A stretch of DNA of 64,000 nt from an uncultured Bacilli bacterium (GCA_947632375.1 CANRPF010000005.1:1-64000), one strand, 5' to 3'; numbered from the stretch's first letter, positions 10,949 through 37,508 are shown. A program made the numbers and translations. Notes: generated by a model not told the origin, from the sequence alone.

Positions 10949-13900
10949 TTGAAATATGTAGTAAAAAGAGATAAAAGGACAGAATTATTTAATAAAGAAA
11001 AGATTATAAATGCTGTTGAGGCAGCGTTCAATAGCGTGGAAAACGAAATTTCAGATAAGGCTCACATGAAAGCGAGAGAAATCGCTAATTATGTAGGTGA
11101 TATAGAAGAAACTTTAGACGTAGAAAAAATACAAGATATTGTAGAAGAAAAATTAATGGCTAGCAATAGAAAGGATATAGCAAGAGAATATATAAGATAT
11201 AGATACCAAAGAACAAAAGAAAGAGAAAGAAACTCACAGTTCATGAAAGAGGTGTCAGAAAAACTAGGGGCAACTAATGTACAAAACCAAAACGCTAATG
11301 TTGACGAACACTCATTTGGTGGTCGTATGGGTGAGGCTAAAAACTCACTTATGAAAAAGTATGCACTAGATTATATTATGTCTGATATGTCCAGAGAAAA
11401 TCATTTGAATAATGAAATATATGTTCATGATTTAGATAGTTATGCTGTTGGTTGTCATAATTGTTTAAGTATACCTTTTGACAAATTATTAGCAGAAGGG
11501 TTTAATACAAGACAAACAGATGTAAGACCAGCACAATCTATTAATACTGCATTTCAGTTGGTGGCTGTAATATTTCAATTACAAAGTTTACAACAATTCG
11601 GTGGGGTAAGTGCAACTCATTTGGATTGGACAATGGTTCCGTATGTTCGTAAATCGTTTTATAAACATTTTATAGACGGTTTGCATTATGTAACCGACGC
11701 TAAATATGACGAAAGTGAATTTAATTCAGAACTAAGCGTTGATAGCGAAGAATATAAAAAATATCCAGCAACTTATAATTATGCTATGGATATGACAAAA
11801 AGAGAATTAAATCAAGCTGTAGAAGGTATGTACCACAACCTTAGATATTAGGGCGACTTAATAGTAATATTAAGAACATAGCTATCTAAACGGGGAAACT
11901 CTTTTAATAAGACAATCCCGTGCTAAATTTGTATTAATAAATACAATAAATGCCTAACGACTATCCATATAAAAACGTGGAGTAGGGCTAAGCGGCTCGA
12001 AATGGTAGCCTCCCTTTAGGGAAGAAGATATAGTCTAATCTTTATGGTGACATAAAGAAGTTCATAAGAGAACTGCATAAGAGTAGCGACCTTATGTGAA
12101 TACAAATGTAATACATTGCAATCACGTAGTGGTAATCAATTACCTTTTACATCAATAAATTATGGTACTTGTACTCTACCAGAAGGTAGAATGGTAATTA
12201 AAGCATTATTAGAGGGTTCTATTAAAGGTGTAGGAAAAGTAAGAAAAACACCTATATTCCCATGTGGAATATTCCAATGTATGAAAGGCGTTAATAGAAA
12301 AGAAGGAGACCCTAATTATGATTTATTCTTATTAGCATTAAAATCAACATCTAAAAGATTATATCCTAATTATGCTAATGTAGACTGGTCTGGTAATGCT
12401 GGATATGATATAAACGACCCTAAAACATATTTCTCAACTATGGGTAAGTGTAAATGCAGCTCATATAAAACCTTTTGAACCTCGCTCGAGGGTGTCACAA
12501 TTTTTGTGGCTAACGGTTAGGACTTATTAAAGTTGAGACCGTGCTAAGCCTTTATTAAGGAAAGTGTATCGACTATCCCTGGTGAATGTAAGGGAGTAGA
12601 GCTAGAGATAAGCACTAGCTCGAAGCGGAAGGCTGTCGAAAGATAGAAGATATAGTCAGTGCCAATGGTGACATTGGATAAAACGTGCAGAACAGCGAAT
12701 GGCTTTGATATAAATGCAGACGAAGGTGTAAATCCACAAACAAAAGACGGTCGTGGAAACATTTGTCCTGTAACTATTATAATGCCAACTCTTGCTATGG
12801 AAGCAATAAAAGAAAATGATAATATAATAGATAATTTTATAAATCTATTAGATAATAAAATATCAGAAGCAAGAGATATGCTCATTGAAAGATATAATTA
12901 TATATGCAGTCAAAATCCTAATTCGGCTAAATTTATGTATGAAAATGGTTTAATGATAGGATATGACGGAAAGAACATTGAAAGTGCTATGAAGCATGGT
13001 ACTTTAGCCATAGGACAAATAGGTCTTGCAGAAACTTTACAAATATTAATAGGTAAAGACCATACAACAGAAGAGGGTATGGAATTGGCTAAAAAAATAG
13101 AAAGTTTATTTAAAAAACGTTGTGCAGAATTTAAAGAAGAATATAAATTAAACTTTGGGGTATATTTTACACCTAAATTTTCTTGGGTGAATTAATAGTG
13201 ATATTAATTAAAAATCTCGTTAAACGGTCTATCGTAATAAGGTGGTAAGAGAGCCTAAACCGAAAGGCAGAGGTAATACCGTAGGATTTCATTCAAATTG
13301 TAAGAAAGGAATTAATAGCATGGCTAAGAAATTATTAAAAGATAAATTGGTTAACAGAAACGAAATTAAAGAAGAATTAAGACCAATTAAAAATACAAAA
13401 AATGCTTATTGTACGCCTAGTGGTTTGTTTTATGCAGATTATGGTAACGATATGTTTTATCCATTAAGAACAGAAATAAACTCAACAAGTAAATATTGTT
13501 ATGTAGGATTAAGATATAATAATAAAAATCATAACACTAGAAAGAAAGCACATAGAATAATAGCAGAAACATATATTCCTAATCCTAATAAATGTAAAAC
13601 GGTAAGACATAAAAACAATATAAGACATGATAATCGTGTCGAAAATTTATACTGGACTAATATTTGAATGATGTTCTCTAACGACTATCGAAAATTATTA
13701 ATGTAATGAGTAGAGTACACTTATGTGGAAAAGCGAGACCCTTCATAAGAAGGTGAAGATATAGTCTAATCCGTAACTAAATATCGGGAAACCGACGGTA
13801 GAAAAATGGCAGAAAATTTATGCTATACCTCAATGAAAAAGTTTAAATCAAAATATGGTGAAATACAAAATGTTAGTGACAGAGAATATTTCACTAATTC

Positions 13901-24059: not shown

Positions 24060-24135
24060 TGGTGGAACATACAGGGCTCGAACCTGCGACCTTCTGCTTG
24101 CAAAGCAGACGTTCTCCCAACTGAACTAATGCCCC
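24060..24135 (-). tRNA. tRNA-Ala (TGC)
   Basis: GGGGCAT/ATGTTCC with G3:U70, TTTGCAA anticodon loop, encoded CCA. Confidence 0.92.
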
Positions 24136-24298
24136 AAATATGAGGTTCGCAAATCTAGTGGAGGAAAATTCACTAAAATTTGTTATGACATGCAAACTTC
24201 CATGATATGCAAACCCTAAAAGGAAATAATAATCATAATGACATTCATATTACATCAAAAGATTATCGAATAATAAAATGTACAAAAAGTAATACATT

Positions 24299-24373
24299 TG
24301 GCAGGGGGTGTAGGAGTCAAACCCACTCGACAGTAGTTTTGGAGACTACTCGGCAAATCGTCGCCTACCCCCT
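24299..24373 (-). tRNA. tRNA-Trp (CCA)
   Basis: AGGGGGT/ACCCCCT, GTAGT-CTCCAAA-ACTAC, G73, encoded CCA; short D loop. Confidence 0.8.
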
Positions 24374-28526: not shown

Positions 28527-29300
28527 TTAATCGTTAAAGAATACTTTGCTAAACCACCCTATAAAACCTTTTTTCTCTTGTTCCTTTATTGGCATTAATG
28601 GTACGACTTTAAGGTCGTCGTCTAATCTATCAAGTTCTTTTCTTATTTCTTCTGTATCTGTTGGTGTTCCTATCTCAATAAGTTTTTCTTTACCAACCTC
28701 TCTAATAAATTTATCCATTGTTAAATCACAATATTCGTCAACCCAGTCTCCCAAGTAATAAAATCTATCACTTATTACATATGCACTATTATCTGGCATA
28801 GGGCTTCTTATTTCACTTCTTTTTTGGAAAGTTCCAAATAATATAGGGTCTTTCTCCATTCTATCTTTTTCAACTTGACGTTCAACTTCACCAGTATAAT
28901 CGGTAAATAATACATACATCTGGTCGAAATAAGGTTTTGTTTGAGCGATAATATCAACTATATCGTCTGGGATATTTCTAGGATAGTTCTCTAACTCTAT
29001 TATTTTAACGGCGTCATTTGCTATATTATCTATGTATTCTTCTATATCTGTTCTATCAACAAATGTATTAATTCCAAGTTTTACTATTTCTCGTTCCTTT
29101 TCAACACAATCAACCAAAAATCTAAGTTTTTCTATAAGTCTTTTTTGTCCAGTTGTTTTAAGTTTTTCTACTGTCTGTAAGGCACCATTATAAAAGTTTT
29201 TTAAATCTTCGTCTGATGTCTTTTTCTTTTTATCTTTTAATGTTTCAAAATATTCTGTTGGTGTCATTTCTTTAAAATCTTTTGATTTTTTCTTAGCCAT
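28527..29300 (-). CDS. hypothetical protein
   Basis: 257-aa ORF. Confidence 0.65.
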   Translation of the reverse strand: MAKKKSKDFKEMTPTEYFETLKDKKKKTSDEDLKNFYNGALQTVEKLKTTGQKRLIEKLRFLVDCVEKEREIVKLGINTFVDRTDIEEYIDNIANDAVKIIELENYPRNIPDDIVDIIAQTKPYFDQMYVLFTDYTGEVERQVEKDRMEKDPILFGTFQKRSEIRSPMPDNSAYVISDRFYYLGDWVDEYCDLTMDKFIREVGKEKLIEIGTPTDTEEIRKELDRLDDDLKVVPLMPIKEQEKKGFIGWFSKVFFND

Positions 29301-29307
29301 AATAAAA

Positions 29308-29928
29308 TCACCTCTTAATTAACTTTTTAGCTACATAATCATTATAAATATCATATCTTTTAGTAACGTCTTGTTGTTCTTCTAAAGAGTATCCTTTCAT
29401 AACATTGTTATAAAATCCACAATTTGAAAATGGCTCTACACAACCACCACATCTTATACATTGTGGCACTAAAGACCAAGCCACATCTTCGTCATATTTT
29501 CTTATTTCTTCAACCAATTCTCTTGTATATTCTACTGTCGTAGGGTCTGCACTCATGCAAAGTCTTTTCTCTGCTATATTCATAAGTGCTTGGATATTAG
29601 CGTCCATTTCCATTGGAACGTAGTTCATTTGTGAACGTTGTTCTCTATCTACGCCAGTACGGTCTGTACGTTCAGTACCAACAAATTTCTCTACACCTTC
29701 ATGATGTCTAGCAAAATGTGTACTGATAGCATATGGAATATTGTCCCATTTCCAACTTATCATACTACGTCTAATTGGTGAGTGACGACAAATTAATAAT
29801 TTTCTCTTCCACTCTTGTTTAGGTTCAACCCCTGCTTCTTTACTTATTGTAGTCATGCAAGCTGATTTAATAGCTAGCCAGTCTACATCAAATTTTGTTA
29901 TTCTTACTTTTGTATCGTATTTCTTCAT
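29308..29928 (-). CDS. ThyX-like (flavin-dependent thymidylate synthase family) protein
   Basis: RHSPIRRSMISWKWDNIPYAISTHFARHHEG...REQRSQMNYV. Confidence 0.72.
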   Translation of the reverse strand: MKKYDTKVRITKFDVDWLAIKSACMTTISKEAGVEPKQEWKRKLLICRHSPIRRSMISWKWDNIPYAISTHFARHHEGVEKFVGTERTDRTGVDREQRSQMNYVPMEMDANIQALMNIAEKRLCMSADPTTVEYTRELVEEIRKYDEDVAWSLVPQCIRCGGCVEPFSNCGFYNNVMKGYSLEEQQDVTKRYDIYNDYVAKKLIKR

Positions 29929-29960
29929 TTTTATAATCTCCTCCCATGTATTATAAAAAT

Positions 29961-29989
29961 ATATTATCATATGAAATAAAAAAAGTCAA
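29961..29989 (-). promoter_or_regulatory. sigma70-like promoter
   Basis: TTGACT-17-TAATAT (minus). Confidence 0.78.
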
Positions 29990-30006: not shown

Positions 30007-32253
30007 TTAAATTTCTTGAAAAATTTGCACCAAAAAGGTCTTTCTATCGTCTATTGCATTTTTATATATACAAGTATTAAACGATTTAGGTTCAGCAATT
30101 ATATGAGCCATACTTTTAGCCCTTGTTATTGCTGTATATAACCACTCATTTGAAAGCATTACATATGAAGAATTATCAAAAGCCACTATAACGTCTTTAA
30201 ATTGTGAGCCTTGGCTAGAGTGACAAGTTATTGCATACGCAAGTTCAAGTCCAGCATATTTTTCTTTAGGAATTATAACTTCTCCCTCGTCATAAAAGTC
30301 TATAATACAATATTTTTTATGTATTTCCTTGACTATACCCATACTACCATTAAATATATTAGTAACATTATCGTCTGGTGTTCTAACACTATAATGATTT
30401 TTACGATTTATGATTTTATCCCCTTCTCTTATACAATAATCACTTTTGTTTTTGGTGGCTTCAAAAGAGATTTCTCTTGTAAACTTATTCTTTTTAGGAT
30501 TTATCATATTTTGTATTGCTTTATTAATCTTCATACGTGATAGTTTTATTCTGTCATTTTGAGCAACTATAATCTGTACGTCTCTTATATCTTTATATTT
30601 CTGTAATTCTTGCTTAAAAGTATCAATAACTAGGTCATAAAGTAATGTTTTATCTTCTCTTAAACAAAAGTGTAGGTCTTGTAATTCACCTAAAACTTGG
30701 TCTGTATCAAGACTTTCTTTAAACATTATCTCTTTATGTCTAACTTTTTGTGATGTCGTGATAATAGCACTTTTCTTGGCTTGTCTGTGTATTTTAGTAA
30801 GTTCTATGATAGGTATTTTATTACTATCCATTAGATTACTAAGAAGATTACCTATTCCAATTGGTGGTAATTGTCCATTATCACCTAACATAATAAGTTT
30901 AGAGCCATTAGGTATGGCTTGTATTAAAGACCAGAATAATTCAAGTCCTACCATAGATATTTCGTCTATAATTACCATATCTACGTCTAATGGATTGTCT
31001 TCTTTGTAGACAAACCCGTCACCTTGAAAGCCTAAAAGTCTATGTATTGTACTACTTTCATAACCAGTTGCTTCTGCTATTCTTTTTGACGCTTGTCCAG
31101 AAAATGCACATTGTCTTATAACGTCAGTAGTATTGTTATAAATAATGTCATAAATACCTTTTATAAGACTACTTTTACCAGTACCAGCCAAACCTACTAT
31201 AACTGACACGTTTTGATTTAATACTTTGTATATTCCGTCAAGTTGTTCGTCTGTAAACTCAAAACCCTGTTTCTTTATTGTTTTATCTATTTCTTTTTGT
31301 ATTATTTTGTTATCTATGGTCTTAACACTAGCATTATTAAGTTGATTTAATTTATCAACTATCTTACACTCTAGGTCATAATAGTAATACAAAGCCAATT
31401 GGTCTTTGTTTATATCTTCATAGACTAATTTAGCCTTAACCATATCTTCTAGGACTACTTTTATTCTATCGTAGTTAACATCTAGTAAATCAACAACCAT
31501 AATTTCAAATTTTTCATGTGTTAGCCATGTAGAGCCAAGCATTGGATTAGTTGCAATATCTTTTAATAGATAGGTTACACCTGCTTTTATTCTAAATTTG
31601 CTATCTTTTGCTATGTTGTATTGCAAGGCTATTTTATCAGCACTTTTAAAACCAATTCCTTTAACGTCGTCTGCTAGCATATAAGGATTTTGCTTAAATT
31701 TAGCAATTGCTTTATCTGGAGAGCCATATTGTTCTACAAGTTGTTTTATTCTGCTAGAACTAACGCCTAGTGGAGCAAAAAAGTTGTATGCTGGGGCGTA
31801 TCTTTCAGAAGACACGAATTTATCTATAATTTTCTGTGCTGTTTTTGCACCAATTCCTTTAACTTTAACCAATTCTTTAATATTTTTACTTTTTATATAT
31901 TCAAAAGGTTCGTCTAAAGTATCATATAATGTTTTAACTTGTTTTTCAGTAAGAATTTGTTCCAAAAACATTTTCTCGTCTTCTTGGGTATCTATCTCTG
32001 TGCACTCATACATACTTGAAAACTTTAATTGCGTACCATAAGGCGTTTCTATGATATTACCCTCTACTATATATATACCTCTATTTGTCGGTTCTGCCAT
32101 AGTATATCCTGACATTCTAAATCTGTCACTGGGCAATTCTTTTTTATCTCCTTCCATTACAGATATGACATCAGCCAAAAAAGCTGTCCAGTTGGTATCT
32201 GGACTATAAAATGATATATCTTTTTTTTGTCTTATTTTAATTTTGAGTTTCAT
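30007..32253 (-). CDS. RecD2-like helicase
   Basis: HhH KVKGIGAKTAQKI; Walker A VGLAGTGKSS; DMVIIDEISMVG; AYAITCHSSQGSQF. Confidence 0.88.
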   Translation of the reverse strand: MKLKIKIRQKKDISFYSPDTNWTAFLADVISVMEGDKKELPSDRFRMSGYTMAEPTNRGIYIVEGNIIETPYGTQLKFSSMYECTEIDTQEDEKMFLEQILTEKQVKTLYDTLDEPFEYIKSKNIKELVKVKGIGAKTAQKIIDKFVSSERYAPAYNFFAPLGVSSSRIKQLVEQYGSPDKAIAKFKQNPYMLADDVKGIGFKSADKIALQYNIAKDSKFRIKAGVTYLLKDIATNPMLGSTWLTHEKFEIMVVDLLDVNYDRIKVVLEDMVKAKLVYEDINKDQLALYYYYDLECKIVDKLNQLNNASVKTIDNKIIQKEIDKTIKKQGFEFTDEQLDGIYKVLNQNVSVIVGLAGTGKSSLIKGIYDIIYNNTTDVIRQCAFSGQASKRIAEATGYESSTIHRLLGFQGDGFVYKEDNPLDVDMVIIDEISMVGLELFWSLIQAIPNGSKLIMLGDNGQLPPIGIGNLLSNLMDSNKIPIIELTKIHRQAKKSAIITTSQKVRHKEIMFKESLDTDQVLGELQDLHFCLREDKTLLYDLVIDTFKQELQKYKDIRDVQIIVAQNDRIKLSRMKINKAIQNMINPKKNKFTREISFEATKNKSDYCIREGDKIINRKNHYSVRTPDDNVTNIFNGSMGIVKEIHKKYCIIDFYDEGEVIIPKEKYAGLELAYAITCHSSQGSQFKDVIVAFDNSSYVMLSNEWLYTAITRAKSMAHIIAEPKSFNTCIYKNAIDDRKTFLVQIFQEI

Positions 32254-33166
32254 TATTAATTACCCCTTCTTTTATGACTTTAAACATATCCTTTATATCG
32301 CTTTTTAGGTCATATCTTTCTGGAGAGGTAGAAGTCATTGCAAATTGTTCATTAACGCCGTCTATATACATAGTCATAGTTCCGTCGTCTCCTTGATAAA
32401 ACTCTTGCCACTCTTCGTTAGTAAGCATATTTTTAACGTCAAGTTGTTTTATAGCAAGATTGTCAAAAGATACACACTTGAATTTATCTAGGTATTTTGG
32501 TAAATCTCTTTTTAACCAATCTATCTTATCTTGTATATCTTTAGCCACTTTTTCATTTTGTAGCAAATCTGCACCTCTACCCCAATTTTTATACCCTAGA
32601 ATAAGTATTTTACAACCAAATTGAGATAGATAATCAAACACATCTTTACCATGTATTCCTGCTATCAAATGTACTACTGCATTATCATTTTTAGCAACCT
32701 CTTTCCACATTAGGTCGAAAGGTTTTAAATAAGATATTCCTAAACCATAGATAAGGTTTTCCTCAATAAGTTCATTTATAAGATTTACATTATCTATAAA
32801 CTCATTTTGATGTACTGTTATAGAAGGTATAACGCCTTGCTTTTTAAGTTTTTGCAAGAAAGGCTTTAGGTCTGGGTGGCTAGTTACTTTTCCACCACCA
32901 ATAGCCATTTCTGTACCTTTAGTAAGACTATTTACAAATTGTAAATTCATTATATCTCCATGCTTACCTTCTGGATTAGACTTCTCATGACACATACGAC
33001 AATTCATATTACACCAATTAGTGATTTTGAAATCCATAGATACAGGAAATTCTAGGTCTGGCTTTTCATATTCACCTTCTGTTTCTATTATTCTTGTGCC
33101 GTCTTCATATATAGATATTGTAGCATTACCATTATGGTATTTTTCTAACATTTTCATAAAAACCAC
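32237..33166 (-). CDS. radical SAM protein
   Basis: ITNWCNMNCRMCHEKSNP (CxxxCxxC), IGGGKVTSHPD. Confidence 0.85.
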   Translation of the reverse strand: MVFMKMLEKYHNGNATISIYEDGTRIIETEGEYEKPDLEFPVSMDFKITNWCNMNCRMCHEKSNPEGKHGDIMNLQFVNSLTKGTEMAIGGGKVTSHPDLKPFLQKLKKQGVIPSITVHQNEFIDNVNLINELIEENLIYGLGISYLKPFDLMWKEVAKNDNAVVHLIAGIHGKDVFDYLSQFGCKILILGYKNWGRGADLLQNEKVAKDIQDKIDWLKRDLPKYLDKFKCVSFDNLAIKQLDVKNMLTNEEWQEFYQGDDGTMTMYIDGVNEQFAMTSTSPERYDLKSDIKDMFKVIKEGVINNETQN

Positions 33167-33177
33167 CTCTCTCTTTT

Positions 33178-33414
33178 TTATTTTAATTTTATTGTTTTAG
33201 ATAATCTAGGCATTTCTTGCTCATATATATTTATGAAAGTTTGCAACATTGAGGCTGCTGTTTTATAGTGAGAACTATGACATACTGGAATATAAGTTGG
33301 CATTTCTTGTTTGTCTAGGCTCTCTCGGTTACGCATTTCTATATCGTGTAATGTATTTAAGTAAAATTGTCCAGTAAGGGGACAATATTCCCCCACCCAA
33401 ATCTCTTTTTCCAT
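33178..33414 (-). CDS. hypothetical protein
   Basis: ORF. Confidence 0.55.
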   Translation of the reverse strand: MEKEIWVGEYCPLTGQFYLNTLHDIEMRNRESLDKQEMPTYIPVCHSSHYKTAASMLQTFINIYEQEMPRLSKTIKLK

Positions 33415-33884
33415 TATCCGTCAAAGCCATAATAACCGAAAGCAACTATTTTATCCCCACTTTTTGTTGTATAATCTTCTTTATATTGTTCAAAATCCTC
33501 ATAATAATCTTTATAATGTTCAAATGAGAAAGGAATATCATAAGGGAAATCTTCAATAAACTCGTCAATATCTTCTTTTGTTAAAGTATTGAGATTTTCT
33601 TCTGTACATAAGTCTTCTATGTTGTCTGCTTTTACGTCATTATACATATATTCTGTAGCATATTTACCTTCACTATTTTTATAAGTATCATAATTACATC
33701 TTTCATAAATAATACTCTTTTTAACTTCTGTAACAAACTCTTCTTCTGTACAAAACCTCTCATTAAGACTATCATAATAAAGTTCTCCATTTTTCCATTT
33801 ATTATAATCGTCGTCACTACATATTACTAATGAGTGTGTACTGCTAGAGTTAGTTTCAAAAGTTTTTCTTCTTAATATTCTCAT
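33414..33884 (-). CDS. NSSSTH-family protein 1
   Basis: MRILRRKTFETNSSSTHSLVI. Confidence 0.8.
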   Translation of the reverse strand: MRILRRKTFETNSSSTHSLVICSDDDYNKWKNGELYYDSLNERFCTEEEFVTEVKKSIIYERCNYDTYKNSEGKYATEYMYNDVKADNIEDLCTEENLNTLTKEDIDEFIEDFPYDIPFSFEHYKDYYEDFEQYKEDYTTKSGDKIVAFGYYGFDG

Positions 33885-33897
33885 ATTATCACCTTCT

Positions 33898-34221
33898 TTA
33901 TATAATTTCTTCTTCAAGTTCTGGAACGATTTCTTCAATAATTTCTTTTACCATTTGTTTAAAGTAATCGTCATTTTTATCTTGTAAAAGACTACCATTA
34001 TTAACGGCTTTTAATAATTTATTCTTTTCTCTTTGTTGTTTTTCTTTTTTAGCATTTTGTAAGATTTCTATCATTTCGTCTATTTCTTCTACACTACATA
34101 AAATACTAAATAGATTTTCTAATACTTCTGTATTTTCTTCTTCCTCTAATAATTCTATTTTATTATCAGCATTATCAGCGTCACTGATAGTGATAGTCAT
34201 TTTAACTGCCTTGTCTTCCAT
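33898..34221 (-). CDS. hypothetical protein
   Basis: ORF. Confidence 0.6.
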   Translation of the reverse strand: MEDKAVKMTITISDADNADNKIELLEEEENTEVLENLFSILCSVEEIDEMIEILQNAKKEKQQREKNKLLKAVNNGSLLQDKNDDYFKQMVKEIIEEIVPELEEEII

Positions 34222-34223
34222 TT

Positions 34224-34478
34224 TTATTCTCCTCCTAAATCTTTTTGTTCGTGCATGATTTCGTCAAGTAATTCTAAACCTTCTTCGTCTTCTTCCTCTG
34301 TTTCTTCTTCAACCTCGTAGTCATAATCAACGTAGAAATCAAAGTTGCTTAAAATATCATTTAAAAATATTTCTAGTGCGTCCATTTTATTGTCAGCTTC
34401 AACTTCTTCTTCTTGGTCGAAAGAACCAGCTATTCTTACTCTGTAATTTTTCATTCTTATACACCTCCATTCAAGCAA
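34224..34478 (-). CDS. hypothetical acidic protein
   Basis: ORF. Confidence 0.6.
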   Translation of the reverse strand: MLEWRCIRMKNYRVRIAGSFDQEEEVEADNKMDALEIFLNDILSNFDFYVDYDYEVEEETEEEDEEGLELLDEIMHEQKDLGGE

Positions 34479-34702
34479 TAGACATCTGTAACTTTTCTTT
34501 GTTTCTTATATCCTTCTTCTACACAAGTTGTAACTCTGAAAATGGTATCGTCAAGTATATAATCTTTGGTGTTTTTATCCACATCTTCAACCTTAATCTT
34601 TCTCTCGTCGTTTTGGATTTTAAAGAAATCCTTTAGGTCACTACAACCTACTGTTTTGTCTGGTAGATATTTCACTATCCATTCAATTCTGTCTAAACTC
34701 AT
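34457..34702 (-). CDS. hypothetical protein
   Basis: ORF. Confidence 0.6.
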   Translation of the reverse strand: MSLDRIEWIVKYLPDKTVGCSDLKDFFKIQNDERKIKVEDVDKNTKDYILDDTIFRVTTCVEEGYKKQRKVTDVYCLNGGV

Positions 34703-34729
34703 AATTATCTCCTCCTATCTTATATATAC

Positions 34730-34758
34730 ATGATAACATATAAATTTCAAAATGTCAA
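34730..34758 (-). promoter_or_regulatory. sigma70-like promoter
   Basis: TTGACA-17-TATCAT (minus). Confidence 0.75.
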
Positions 34759-34806
34759 CATTTAATACAAAAAATTTTCATTGTCTTAAAAATGAGACAA
34801 AGTTTA

Positions 34807-34842
34807 CAAAAAGAAAATGATAGGTTTTTATTCCTATCATTG
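34807..34842 (-). terminator. intrinsic terminator
   Basis: ATGATAGG-N8-CCTATCAT then TTTTCTTTTT on minus strand. Confidence 0.75.
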
Positions 34843-34843
34843 A

Positions 34844-35668
34844 TTAGTGCAAGTAAACGTCTTTATCTTTGGAATATTCTTTAAGTCTATCCCAAAACTC
34901 TCCAGCTGGAATATCATACTCTTTATATATATTATACCTTTCTTCTTCGTCTACGTCTTTCAAATCAGGCATTTTTTCTCCTTTTGCATTTACATAATAG
35001 GGCTCTTCGTCATAGTCATATTCATAACCAATAGTTTTAATATTGTACCCCCTGTACTCGTCACCACTTATAGTGATATAAGCGTCTTTGTTAAAAACAA
35101 GTCTTTTAACAAAATCGTCATTTGTACTCAATTGTTCTATTAATCTGTCTCCGTCATAATCATAGACATGGTCTACATAATTACCACCATATCCACCTAG
35201 TATTACAACACCCCTTCCTGTTAAATCTCCATTATCTTTGTCGTCGTCAATATATTTAAAGACGTCTTTAGGATTAGGATTTCTGTATCCGTCTTTATTA
35301 TTTTTAACAAATTCTGAATACCTTTCCTTTTTCATGCTATCTGTTAGTGGAAGAATATCTTCTGTATCCATATCATAATAAGTGTCATTATCTAAATATT
35401 CTTTTACTACTTGCTTCCATATTTCCCATACTCTATCTTTAAATTTCTTTATTGTTTTTTTATCACAATTCTCTTTTATAATCATGTAGACATATGCTAG
35501 TTTTTCGTCCCATTCGTCTACAAGCCTAGAGGGATACCTACCAAAAGTATAGTCATGTTCAAGACTATCGTCAATATTCCATTTATCTTTACTTACTTTA
35601 TGTGGAACAACAATAGCGTGTGTACTACTGCTGTTCGTTTCAAAAGTTCCTTTTCTAATTATTTTCAT
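34844..35668 (-). CDS. NSSSTH-family protein 2
   Basis: MKIIRKGTFETNSSSTHAIVV. Confidence 0.8.
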   Translation of the reverse strand: MKIIRKGTFETNSSSTHAIVVPHKVSKDKWNIDDSLEHDYTFGRYPSRLVDEWDEKLAYVYMIIKENCDKKTIKKFKDRVWEIWKQVVKEYLDNDTYYDMDTEDILPLTDSMKKERYSEFVKNNKDGYRNPNPKDVFKYIDDDKDNGDLTGRGVVILGGYGGNYVDHVYDYDGDRLIEQLSTNDDFVKRLVFNKDAYITISGDEYRGYNIKTIGYEYDYDEEPYYVNAKGEKMPDLKDVDEEERYNIYKEYDIPAGEFWDRLKEYSKDKDVYLH

Positions 35669-35677
35669 ATTATCACC

Positions 35678-35917
35678 TTATCCTTTTCTTAACTCTTTTC
35701 TCTTTTCTCTTATTTCTGCTAACACCTCTAAAAATACGTCTTGGTCTTGACTTTTTTCTGCAAGCCACTCTTCGAGTTCTTTCAAAACCTTTTCATATTT
35801 ATATATCCCATTTACACTAGATACAAAGACATCATGTAAAGTGTCAATACAATAATCATGATACCATTTGCCCTTTATTAAATGAGATTGTTCTTCCCCT
35901 ATTTCTTTTTGACACAT
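35678..35917 (-). CDS. hypothetical protein
   Basis: ORF. Confidence 0.55.
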   Translation of the reverse strand: MCQKEIGEEQSHLIKGKWYHDYCIDTLHDVFVSSVNGIYKYEKVLKELEEWLAEKSQDQDVFLEVLAEIREKRKELRKG

Positions 35918-35933
35918 GACACATTTTTTTATA

Positions 35934-36290
35934 TTACCACCTCTCTCCTAAATAAATAGACATTGCCATTTTATCTTTATTTACTGCTTTATCAATACTC
36001 TCTCCATAATAATAGATAAAATCTTTTGGAGCGTATTCTTCGTCAAAATCTTCCATGTTTTCGTCAAATATATCGTAAACATTACTATAATGTCTACCTT
36101 TATAAATAAAATCATTATCTTCTGTTCTTGTTATTCTTTTATCTTCGTCAATATCAAGCATTTCATTTTCATATAAGTTTAAAACTTTTTCTCCCATTAA
36201 AAACTTATCATAATCTTCTTTACTAACGATAACTAACGAATGTGTACTACTGCTATTTGTTTCAAATGTATTTCTTCTTTTAAATATCAT
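35934..36290 (-). CDS. NSSSTH-family protein 3
   Basis: MIFKRRNTFETNSSSTHSLVI. Confidence 0.8.
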   Translation of the reverse strand: MIFKRRNTFETNSSSTHSLVIVSKEDYDKFLMGEKVLNLYENEMLDIDEDKRITRTEDNDFIYKGRHYSNVYDIFDENMEDFDEEYAPKDFIYYYGESIDKAVNKDKMAMSIYLGERW

Positions 36291-36624
36291 ATTCTTCCTC
36301 CTTTAGTAAATCTAATAAACCAAACTTTTCTGCTAAATCCATTACTGAACCTTCTGTTAAATCCACAAGAGTAATTTTATGTTCACATATTCGCTCTATT
36401 TCTTCTATAAATATATAAACACAAGTCTTTGTAACTAATTGAATAGCGTCTGTTAAAATAAACTCTACAATACATTTTTCTTCATTATCTACTTCTCCAA
36501 CGCCATAAGAATATACACAACCACAAGGAACTATATCCCTTATCTTATCAACCTCTGGATTTTTCTTTAAGAGAACTTTCATAAATTCCATTGGTAGTGC
36601 TATGTGCCCAACACTCATATACAT
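36280..36624 (-). CDS. hypothetical protein
   Basis: ORF. Confidence 0.6.
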   Translation of the reverse strand: MYMSVGHIALPMEFMKVLLKKNPEVDKIRDIVPCGCVYSYGVGEVDNEEKCIVEFILTDAIQLVTKTCVYIFIEEIERICEHKITLVDLTEGSVMDLAEKFGLLDLLKEEEYDI

Positions 36625-36625
36625 A

Positions 36626-37027
36626 TTATCTTGCCACCATTTCTATACGATAGTCCATTACAAATTGTCTTAAATTTTCATAATTCATAACGGCTTTATT
36701 TAAGTTTTCTGCTAAAATATCGTCTACACCCTCTATATCAACGTAAGGTGTATCAGTCATTATATCAAAATCAAACGTTATGTCATTATCTGCTAAAAGA
36801 TTTAACATTTGAAACACTCTTAATATATTATCCTCACTTAACAAATAAGTCAAGAGGTAAGATAACATAAATTCCCATGAATTAAGATATGTTTTCATAG
36901 CGTGGTCTGTAAAACTATCTATTGTAAGTGTTACTCTTTTTGGTATATCGGGCTTTGGTAAACTCATAACCAAAGTATGTGTACTAGAACTATTTGTCTC
37001 AAAAGTATCATTTCTAATTAACTTCAT
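36626..37027 (-). CDS. NSSSTH-family protein 4
   Basis: MKLIRNDTFETNSSSTHTLVM; RBS GGGAGGGATTAAC. Confidence 0.8.
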   Translation of the reverse strand: MKLIRNDTFETNSSSTHTLVMSLPKPDIPKRVTLTIDSFTDHAMKTYLNSWEFMLSYLLTYLLSEDNILRVFQMLNLLADNDITFDFDIMTDTPYVDIEGVDDILAENLNKAVMNYENLRQFVMDYRIEMVAR

Positions 37028-37028
37028 G

Positions 37029-37508
37029 TTAATCCCTCCCAAATTCAATAATATTTCCATTTGCAAGAACTATTTTTAATAATGTTTCGTGGTCGAATTG
37101 TAATAATTCTATTAATATATCACCTAAATCTTTATCCCAAGATATTAGTTGGTGATTTATACCAACGATTTCTTCAATATCTCCATGATATTCACTAGGA
37201 AATATAATCTGTTTATGAAATACTTTATTAACTACATCTTCTATTTCCTTAAATTGATAATCCGTTTTTATCATAGCCACTAATTCTGCATAAGAATTAA
37301 CATCATACATATACCAACTTGCAATATGAGATACCAAATAAGACACTTTATCTTTTAGTGTTGTTAATCTCATTTCGTCGTCTGTATCTATCCACCTTAT
37401 TTTCAAATTAGAACTATAAGGCGTATAATTTTCCATTTCACCACCTAAAACTAGAGAGTGTGTACTGCTTGAATTTGTTTCAAATGTTTTTTTTCTTTTA
37501 ATTTCCAT
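37029..37508 (-). CDS. NSSSTH-family protein 5
   Basis: MEIKRKKTFETNSSSTHSLVL. Confidence 0.8.
   Translation of the reverse strand: MEIKRKKTFETNSSSTHSLVLGGEMENYTPYSSNLKIRWIDTDDEMRLTTLKDKVSYLVSHIASWYMYDVNSYAELVAMIKTDYQFKEIEDVVNKVFHKQIIFPSEYHGDIEEIVGINHQLISWDKDLGDILIELLQFDHETLLKIVLANGNIIEFGRD

Follow-up and report, generated by a model that had tools for sequence, protein, structure and literature searches.

What is known of radical S-adenosylmethionine (radical-SAM) maturases comes mostly from natural-product peptides and from a few enzymes. Anaerobic sulfatase-maturating enzyme (anSME) is a radical-SAM enzyme that oxidizes a serine or cysteine lying in a short, fixed motif of its folded client, a sulfatase. 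Radical-SAM maturases and precursors of ribosomally synthesized and post-translationally modified peptides (RiPPs) include PqqE/PqqA, MftC/MftA, and the sactipeptide and ranthipeptide systems (PMC5682303, PMC8326336). Here, a stretch of 64,000 nucleotides from an uncultured Bacilli bacterium (GCA_947632375.1 CANRPF010000005.1:1-64000; hereafter the window) was analyzed, in which five proteins (clients) start with the same N-terminal tail and a radical-SAM gene sits at the downstream end of their array (Table 1). This adjoining gene, which is key to reading the tail as a site of modification, had been overlooked in the initial annotation. Array and enzyme may constitute a single protein-maturation system, and on balance it seems probable, though far from certain, that this is a radical-SAM system in which the common N-terminal tail is both the substrate and the modified site.

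Five genes whose products carry TFETNSSSTH at residues 8-17 had been described here. All five open reading frames (ORFs) were present on the minus strand, each with the peptide at exactly these residues, and residue 5 was arginine in 5/5. A degenerate DNA pattern for the TFETNSSSTH peptide gave five matches in the 2.07-Mb genome bin holding the window, all of them in the array, and a backward-read control pattern gave zero in the same bin. With TFETNSSS as the seed of the first scan, the five N-termini were scanned against 2.9 million viral contigs, yielding 61 loci, and against 84,980 species genomes, yielding 12 further loci (73 tail loci in total). Addition of later loci gave 303 unique tail proteins, gathered by regular expression. 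The tail was N-terminal in every case, with a distance of 8 or 9 positions from Met to the aromatic residue in nearly all, and its 13 residues were nearly invariant. Arg at position -4 from the aromatic residue, Glu, Asn, and the middle Ser were each found in 303/303 proteins, the first Ser in 302/303 (Gly in one), His in 302/303, Thr in 300/303 (Ser in 3), and the third Ser in 299/303 (the remainder Ala or Thr; Met and Leu outside the set). The aromatic position was Phe in 286, Trp in 15, and Tyr in 2, with one His outside the set, and the position between the third Ser and His accepted any residue. The tail was equally conserved in enzyme-centered loci, which were gathered independently of it, and the same conservation was seen in unrestricted position scans and in body-defined homologues. 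At the three Ser positions TCN and AGY codons were used 169/133, 144/159, and 191/108 times, respectively. Because both classes are common at each position, selection acts on the peptide, and the claim that the peptide and not the DNA is conserved was borne out. Past the tail, the 303 proteins were clustered by their bodies into family A (156), family B (114), and others (33). Arrays of tail proteins reached nine in 10 kb.

Every ORF of the window, except antisense ORFs overlapping the same genes, was searched against the tail loci. The enzyme was found at 48/73 loci within the fetched flanks, compared with about 3-6 of 73 for those genes of the window that do not belong to the array, and 14 of 22 viral records among the remaining loci carried it elsewhere in the record. 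In the reverse direction, scanning the enzyme alignment over viral contigs yielded 233 candidates. The 80 best were retrieved, and 75 of these 80 held a nearby tail protein. Of the other five records, two held a tail protein elsewhere and three were contigs of 11-18 kb. All readable tail proteins (133/133) shared the strand of the enzyme. The commonest gene order was A-B-enzyme on one strand, frequently with about 4 bp between the end of the tail gene and the start of the enzyme frame. Among GenBank phages (50,697 records), the 24 strong enzyme hits fell in the same records as the 24 family A hits, namely 15 Lak phages and nine Microcystis phage records; as these represent two lineages, they were counted as two independent co-occurrences and not as 24. 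In Microcystis phage Ma-LMM01 the pair consists of the enzyme gp128 and the family A tail protein gp130. Taken over hundreds of phages, the tail adjoins or is fused to one radical-SAM family, and this link is well supported and leaves little room for doubt. Neighbors occupying the same place in the operon, Ma-LMM01 gp131 (L163:8058-8858) and L170:1779-2579, are annotated as histidyl- and seryl-tRNA synthetase, respectively; the two labels disagree, which suggests that neither is reliable.

Tail, family A body, and enzyme were joined in one ORF at 41/49 fetched viral loci (34 unique). The fused tail reads R-x-G-[FLH]-A-T-N-S-S-S-S-H, with Ala in place of Glu as the only loss, and its Arg was present in 34/34 even though it is absent from the scan pattern. 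The idea that fusion proteins dispense with the recognition half of the tail was rejected on these grounds. One such fusion of tailed family A and radical-SAM enzyme, gp146c of Salmonella phage Arash (L173:3431-4861), is annotated as a methyltransferase. The same tail-A-enzyme fusion occurs on Methylobacterium plasmid pVL1_2, and Deferribacter plasmid pDF308, the nearest full-length plasmid homologue, encodes family A with TNSSSSH followed by the enzyme. The pairing is also seen in distant relatives: Rhodothermus phage RM378 has a separate family A protein, p106 (STNSSSSHS), two genes from the enzyme p108, and in Thermus phage YS40_Isch the gene for a TNSSSAS protein immediately precedes a radical-SAM gene. 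On Agrobacterium pAt, MKLKMDFVSNSSSTSF adjoins a SPASM-type radical-SAM protein, and on one bacterial genome contig only a few bases separate MKVRTDFVTNSSSSSF from the homologous SPASM enzyme downstream of it (34 percent identity); the pairing of tail and enzyme thus recurs with a second radical-SAM subfamily. These bacterial FV[ST]NSSS[ST]SF proteins are encoded directly upstream of radical-SAM/SPASM genes (L227:1483-2919 and L175:3568-5002). These findings suggest that the tail-enzyme class extends beyond phages. We tentatively propose, with less than even confidence, that an N-terminal [TS]-N-S-S-S-x-[HS] generally marks proteins for a so far undescribed modification by radical-SAM enzymes. 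Phages would use it on several unrelated proteins simultaneously, phage and plasmid fusion proteins on themselves, and bacteria on FV[ST]NSSSSSF proteins, with an enzyme of the SPASM type. If true, the outcome would be a protein cofactor or reactive group of a new, ribosomally encoded kind.

A common N-terminus on diverse phage proteins is also known from the internal proteins of T4, whose capsid-targeting sequence is short and ends in Glu. A leader of this kind, cut off by the prohead protease, would account for the common head and for the Glu at residue 10. Unlike in T4, however, conservation runs past the Glu, TNSSSxH behind the supposed cut being as invariant as the residues ahead of it. 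Moreover, the Glu is replaced by Ala in the fused forms, the gene constantly paired with the tail encodes a radical-SAM enzyme, and the Ma-LMM01 operon adjoins a DNA primase. Capsid targeting of the T4 type is therefore very improbable and was rejected on context and conservation.

The cluster motif CxxxCxxC of the enzyme (C49, C53, C56) was conserved in 37/37 homologues and the Gly-rich SAM-binding GGG motif in 30/37, the window's enzyme included. The enzyme matched PHROG 16999 (Fe-S oxidoreductase) and, weakly, one solved structure, that of the tetraether synthase Tes (E 0.002). None of the NCBIfam radical-SAM families (HxsC, NrdG2, viperin, MoaA, and others) scored above the cut-off (best 23.4 bits vs. 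131), and the best match, NrdG2, was very weak. A search of 196 relatives of the host bin found the enzyme in two, the bin itself and one other, suggesting that it is not a chromosomal housekeeping gene. The match to NrdG2 and the single cluster would be compatible with a glycyl-radical system in which the enzyme is the activase and the clients bear the radical. Against this, the shared motif contains no glycine, a loop of the RV[SC]GY type was not seen in the aligned clients, and the Gly near the C terminus of family B is not common to family A, nor is any other Gly motif common to both. Such an activase has scarcely any probability and was rejected, with no glycyl loop recognized and a motif devoid of Gly.

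The bodies had been said to diverge completely. This did not hold within the window, where clients 1 and 4 belong to family A and clients 3 and 5 to family B, but it is correct for A versus B past residue 29: in profile-profile comparison the first 29 residues of the two families aligned (E 6e-21) and the rest did not. Conserved elements of family A center on GEFGW, Y-x-DH, and GNDN or GDE, and KGN is a frequent C-terminal end; in family B the end is often VAFGYYGYDG. AlphaFold modeled a family A member with a predicted local distance difference test score (pLDDT) of 91.9 and a predicted template modeling score (pTM) of 0.86, and client 5 of family B with a pLDDT of 92.6 and a pTM of 0.80. In both models pLDDT exceeded 90 over most of the length and was low, about 60, for residues 1 to about 14. 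As low confidence is found mainly in these first residues, the tail lies mostly ahead of the confident fold. The previously suggested reading of the motif as a shared catalytic turn was not supported as such. Strand 1 starts where the motif ends, at residue 15 in the B model and 16 in the A model, as would be the case if the tail were merely the first strand of one common fold. Yet the motif lies mostly ahead of that strand at low confidence, the bodies of A and B are unrelated by profile, and the order of their secondary-structure elements differs. A common fold is hence exceedingly improbable. The comparison of models proposed in the initial annotation gave two confident, apparently unrelated bodies instead of one fold with the motif as a strand.

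Searches of Pfam, NCBIfam, and PHROGs revealed no function for the client proteins, and in Foldseek searches against the PDB neither body was matched (best E 0.31 and 0.44); one uncharacterized viral homologue was found for family A. PHROG 28997, a function-less entry, corresponds to family A: 61 of 81 family A members matched it (best 4e-35), and the family A member of locus L141 matched the whole profile with E 4.6e-30. The window's own two A members matched weakly (1.4e-4 and 1.2e-3), and family B and the outliers had no PHROGs coverage past the tail. In arrays of huge phages (L016, L023, L036, L048, L061, and L065) many unclassified tail proteins end in Cys (SC or EC), and further unclassified ones end in HS or HT.

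In a RiPP-like system the tail would be a leader bound by the enzyme, and the body or the C terminus would be modified. Known leaders are likewise N-terminal (PMC5682303). Each family keeps its own C-terminal end, YKGN in family A and GYDG or YGHD in family B, and the Cys and HS/HT ends of several outliers would suit such a role. On the other hand, families served by the same enzyme differ in their C termini, the bodies are folded domains of about 70-320 amino acids (aa), the tail is the sole shared part, and neither a peptidase nor an exporter was seen in the neighborhood within the window. Modification outside the tail was accordingly considered improbable.

The A and B clients of one phage agreed in the upstream residues of their tails (3.53 vs. 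2.30 ± 0.11; 0/2000 shuffles) and in tail spacing (41/45 vs. 22.9 expected). This agreement, the pairing of a single enzyme with several unrelated bodies in each phage, and the position of the tail outside the confident fold would also be explained by a docking handle that stays unaltered, with the bodies acting as adaptors that take the enzyme to host or phage targets. Fusion proteins, however, need no recruitment in trans, and still R-x-G-[F/L/H]-A-T-N-S-S-S-S-H, which is in part imposed by the scan, was kept in them. The fixed T-N-S-S-S-x-H also appears stricter than usual docking peptides. We consider an unmodified docking handle unlikely, while assigning it an appreciable chance.

If the tail is indeed the modified site, the enzyme would recognize the extended N-terminal tail R-x3-[F/W/Y/H]-E-T-N-S-S-S-x-H on otherwise unrelated clients and would abstract a hydrogen from a residue within the T-N-S-S-S-x-H core. 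A covalent modification would be left at the core, e.g. an oxidation, an epimerization, or a side-chain cross-link, and the mature tail would then serve each body's own activity. The tail as substrate is the simplest reading because the unrelated bodies share nothing but the tail, which lies outside the confident fold, and because the tail is kept in fusions and its variants in aromatic residue, spacing, and flanks agree between the A and B clients of a phage. The third Ser is replaceable, whereas the second Ser, Asn, Glu, and His are almost never replaced, which points to Ser14, Asn12, or His17 as candidate modified sites as judged from sequence conservation. Cyclophane-type cross-links are known for other radical-SAM enzymes, and the aromatic residue near Thr and Asn might permit one here as well. 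The initial annotation had chosen the right class in calling the motif a targeting, processing, or modification signal; given the radical-SAM partner, modification is favored among the three.

Several observations weigh against a modified tail. The enzyme has only three cluster cysteines and no SPASM domain, and no other alignment column of the 37 homologues contained at least 30 percent Cys; many known peptide maturases do have a SPASM domain. Against Pfam PF04055 (Radical_SAM) the window's enzyme scored 25.8 bits, the gathering score being 29.5, although distant relatives of the enzyme passed with 37.8-51.4 bits. The A-T-N-S-S-S-S-H of the fused tail was partly imposed by the scan pattern. 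When phylogeny was controlled for with the enzyme tree, the spacing test comprised 3 independent pairs and was not significant; with so few pairs, within-phage agreement of the tails may reflect common descent and is supporting evidence only. Low pLDDT at the N terminus is not proof of disorder. Finally, three tail-less body homologues encoded beside tail proteins (L127:7941-8465, L075:5036-5521, and L095:12317-12703) also lacked the GDE/DH or GYDG signatures. Tail and body could therefore be one functional site, and the joint loss fits tail and body acting together.

Table 1. Client array and radical-SAM gene of the window
Feature	Position	Strand	Remarks
Client protein 1	37029..37508	-	159 aa; body family A (E 6e-15), subfamily ending FGRD
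Client 1 tail, R5 to H17: RKKTFETNSSSTH	37458..37496	-	
Client protein 2	36626..37027	-	133 aa; tail present; body unclassified
Client 2 tail, R5 to H17	36977..37015	-	
Client protein 3	35934..36290	-	118 aa; body family B, divergent (E 1e-7)
Client 3 tail, R5 to H17	36240..36278	-	
Client protein 4	34844..35668	-	274 aa; body family A with inserts (E 3e-23)
Client 4 tail, R5 to H17	35618..35656	-	
Client protein 5	33414..33884	-	156 aa; body family B; C terminus VAFGYYGFDG; AlphaFold pLDDT 92.6 except tail
Client 5 tail, R5 to H17	33834..33872	-	
ORF between client 5 and radical-SAM gene	33178..33414	-	78 aa; no Pfam match
Radical-SAM enzyme, proposed tail maturase	32237..33157	-	306 aa; C49xxxC53xxC56; GGG motif; no SPASM cysteines

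The window is part of a 66,117-base contig carrying a phage gene set, with genes for a primase/helicase, a DNA polymerase, an RNA ligase, a polynucleotide kinase, a RecD-like helicase, and an integrase. This contig looks like a phage contig that was binned with the host bin (2.07 Mb; G000, in which the window's contig is C5), for which a contamination of 9.1 percent was determined. The interval 24060-24373 of the window holds a pair of phage tRNA genes, for Ala(tgc) and Trp(cca). An NrdD-like ORF at 10949-11851, whose match covers only positions 5-285 of a 718-position profile, is possibly split or interrupted. A transposase-like ORF (PHROG 10081) lies at 28527-29970, and the neighboring 220-aa ORF was kept in six loci.

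A literature search for the motif and for radical-SAM precursor systems of phages, covering part of the literature, returned nothing relevant, and no description of this phage radical-SAM client system was found in curated families or papers. PHROG 28997 and PHROG 16999 correspond to family A and the enzyme but are unlinked, function-less entries. Ma-LMM01 gp130/gp128, the Lak homologues, and RM378 p106/p108 are instances of this pair from phages that have been isolated or named; their annotation, where there is any, goes no further than hypothetical protein and Fe-S oxidoreductase. Lak megaphages and Microcystis phages are among the phages that carry a radical-SAM enzyme alongside an invariant tail present on many unrelated proteins. 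Should the tail prove to be modified, phages would encode a protein modification whose consensus is precise enough for clients to be recognized in any genome, and hundreds of hypothetical proteins with an NSSSxH or NSSSSSF start would gain a first testable function.

As in RiPP systems, a radical-SAM gene adjoins small proteins with a common N-terminal segment in a same-strand operon. Unlike RiPP precursors, which are short and largely unfolded with a variable core, the clients are folded, measure about 70-320 aa, and have bodies unrelated to one another, and the universal element is the tail itself. The phage enzyme also differs from RiPP maturases in being encoded by phages, in lacking SPASM, in having several clients per enzyme, and in occurring in fused forms. 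With anSME and the sulfatases the system shares a radical-SAM enzyme and a short fixed Ser-bearing motif on a folded client. The motif of the clients, however, is T-N-S-S-S-x-H, with x-H-[SAT] after the Ser triplet, and not the [CS]-x-[PA]-x-R of sulfatases; the clients have no sulfatase match, and the enzyme does not contain the auxiliary-cluster cysteines.

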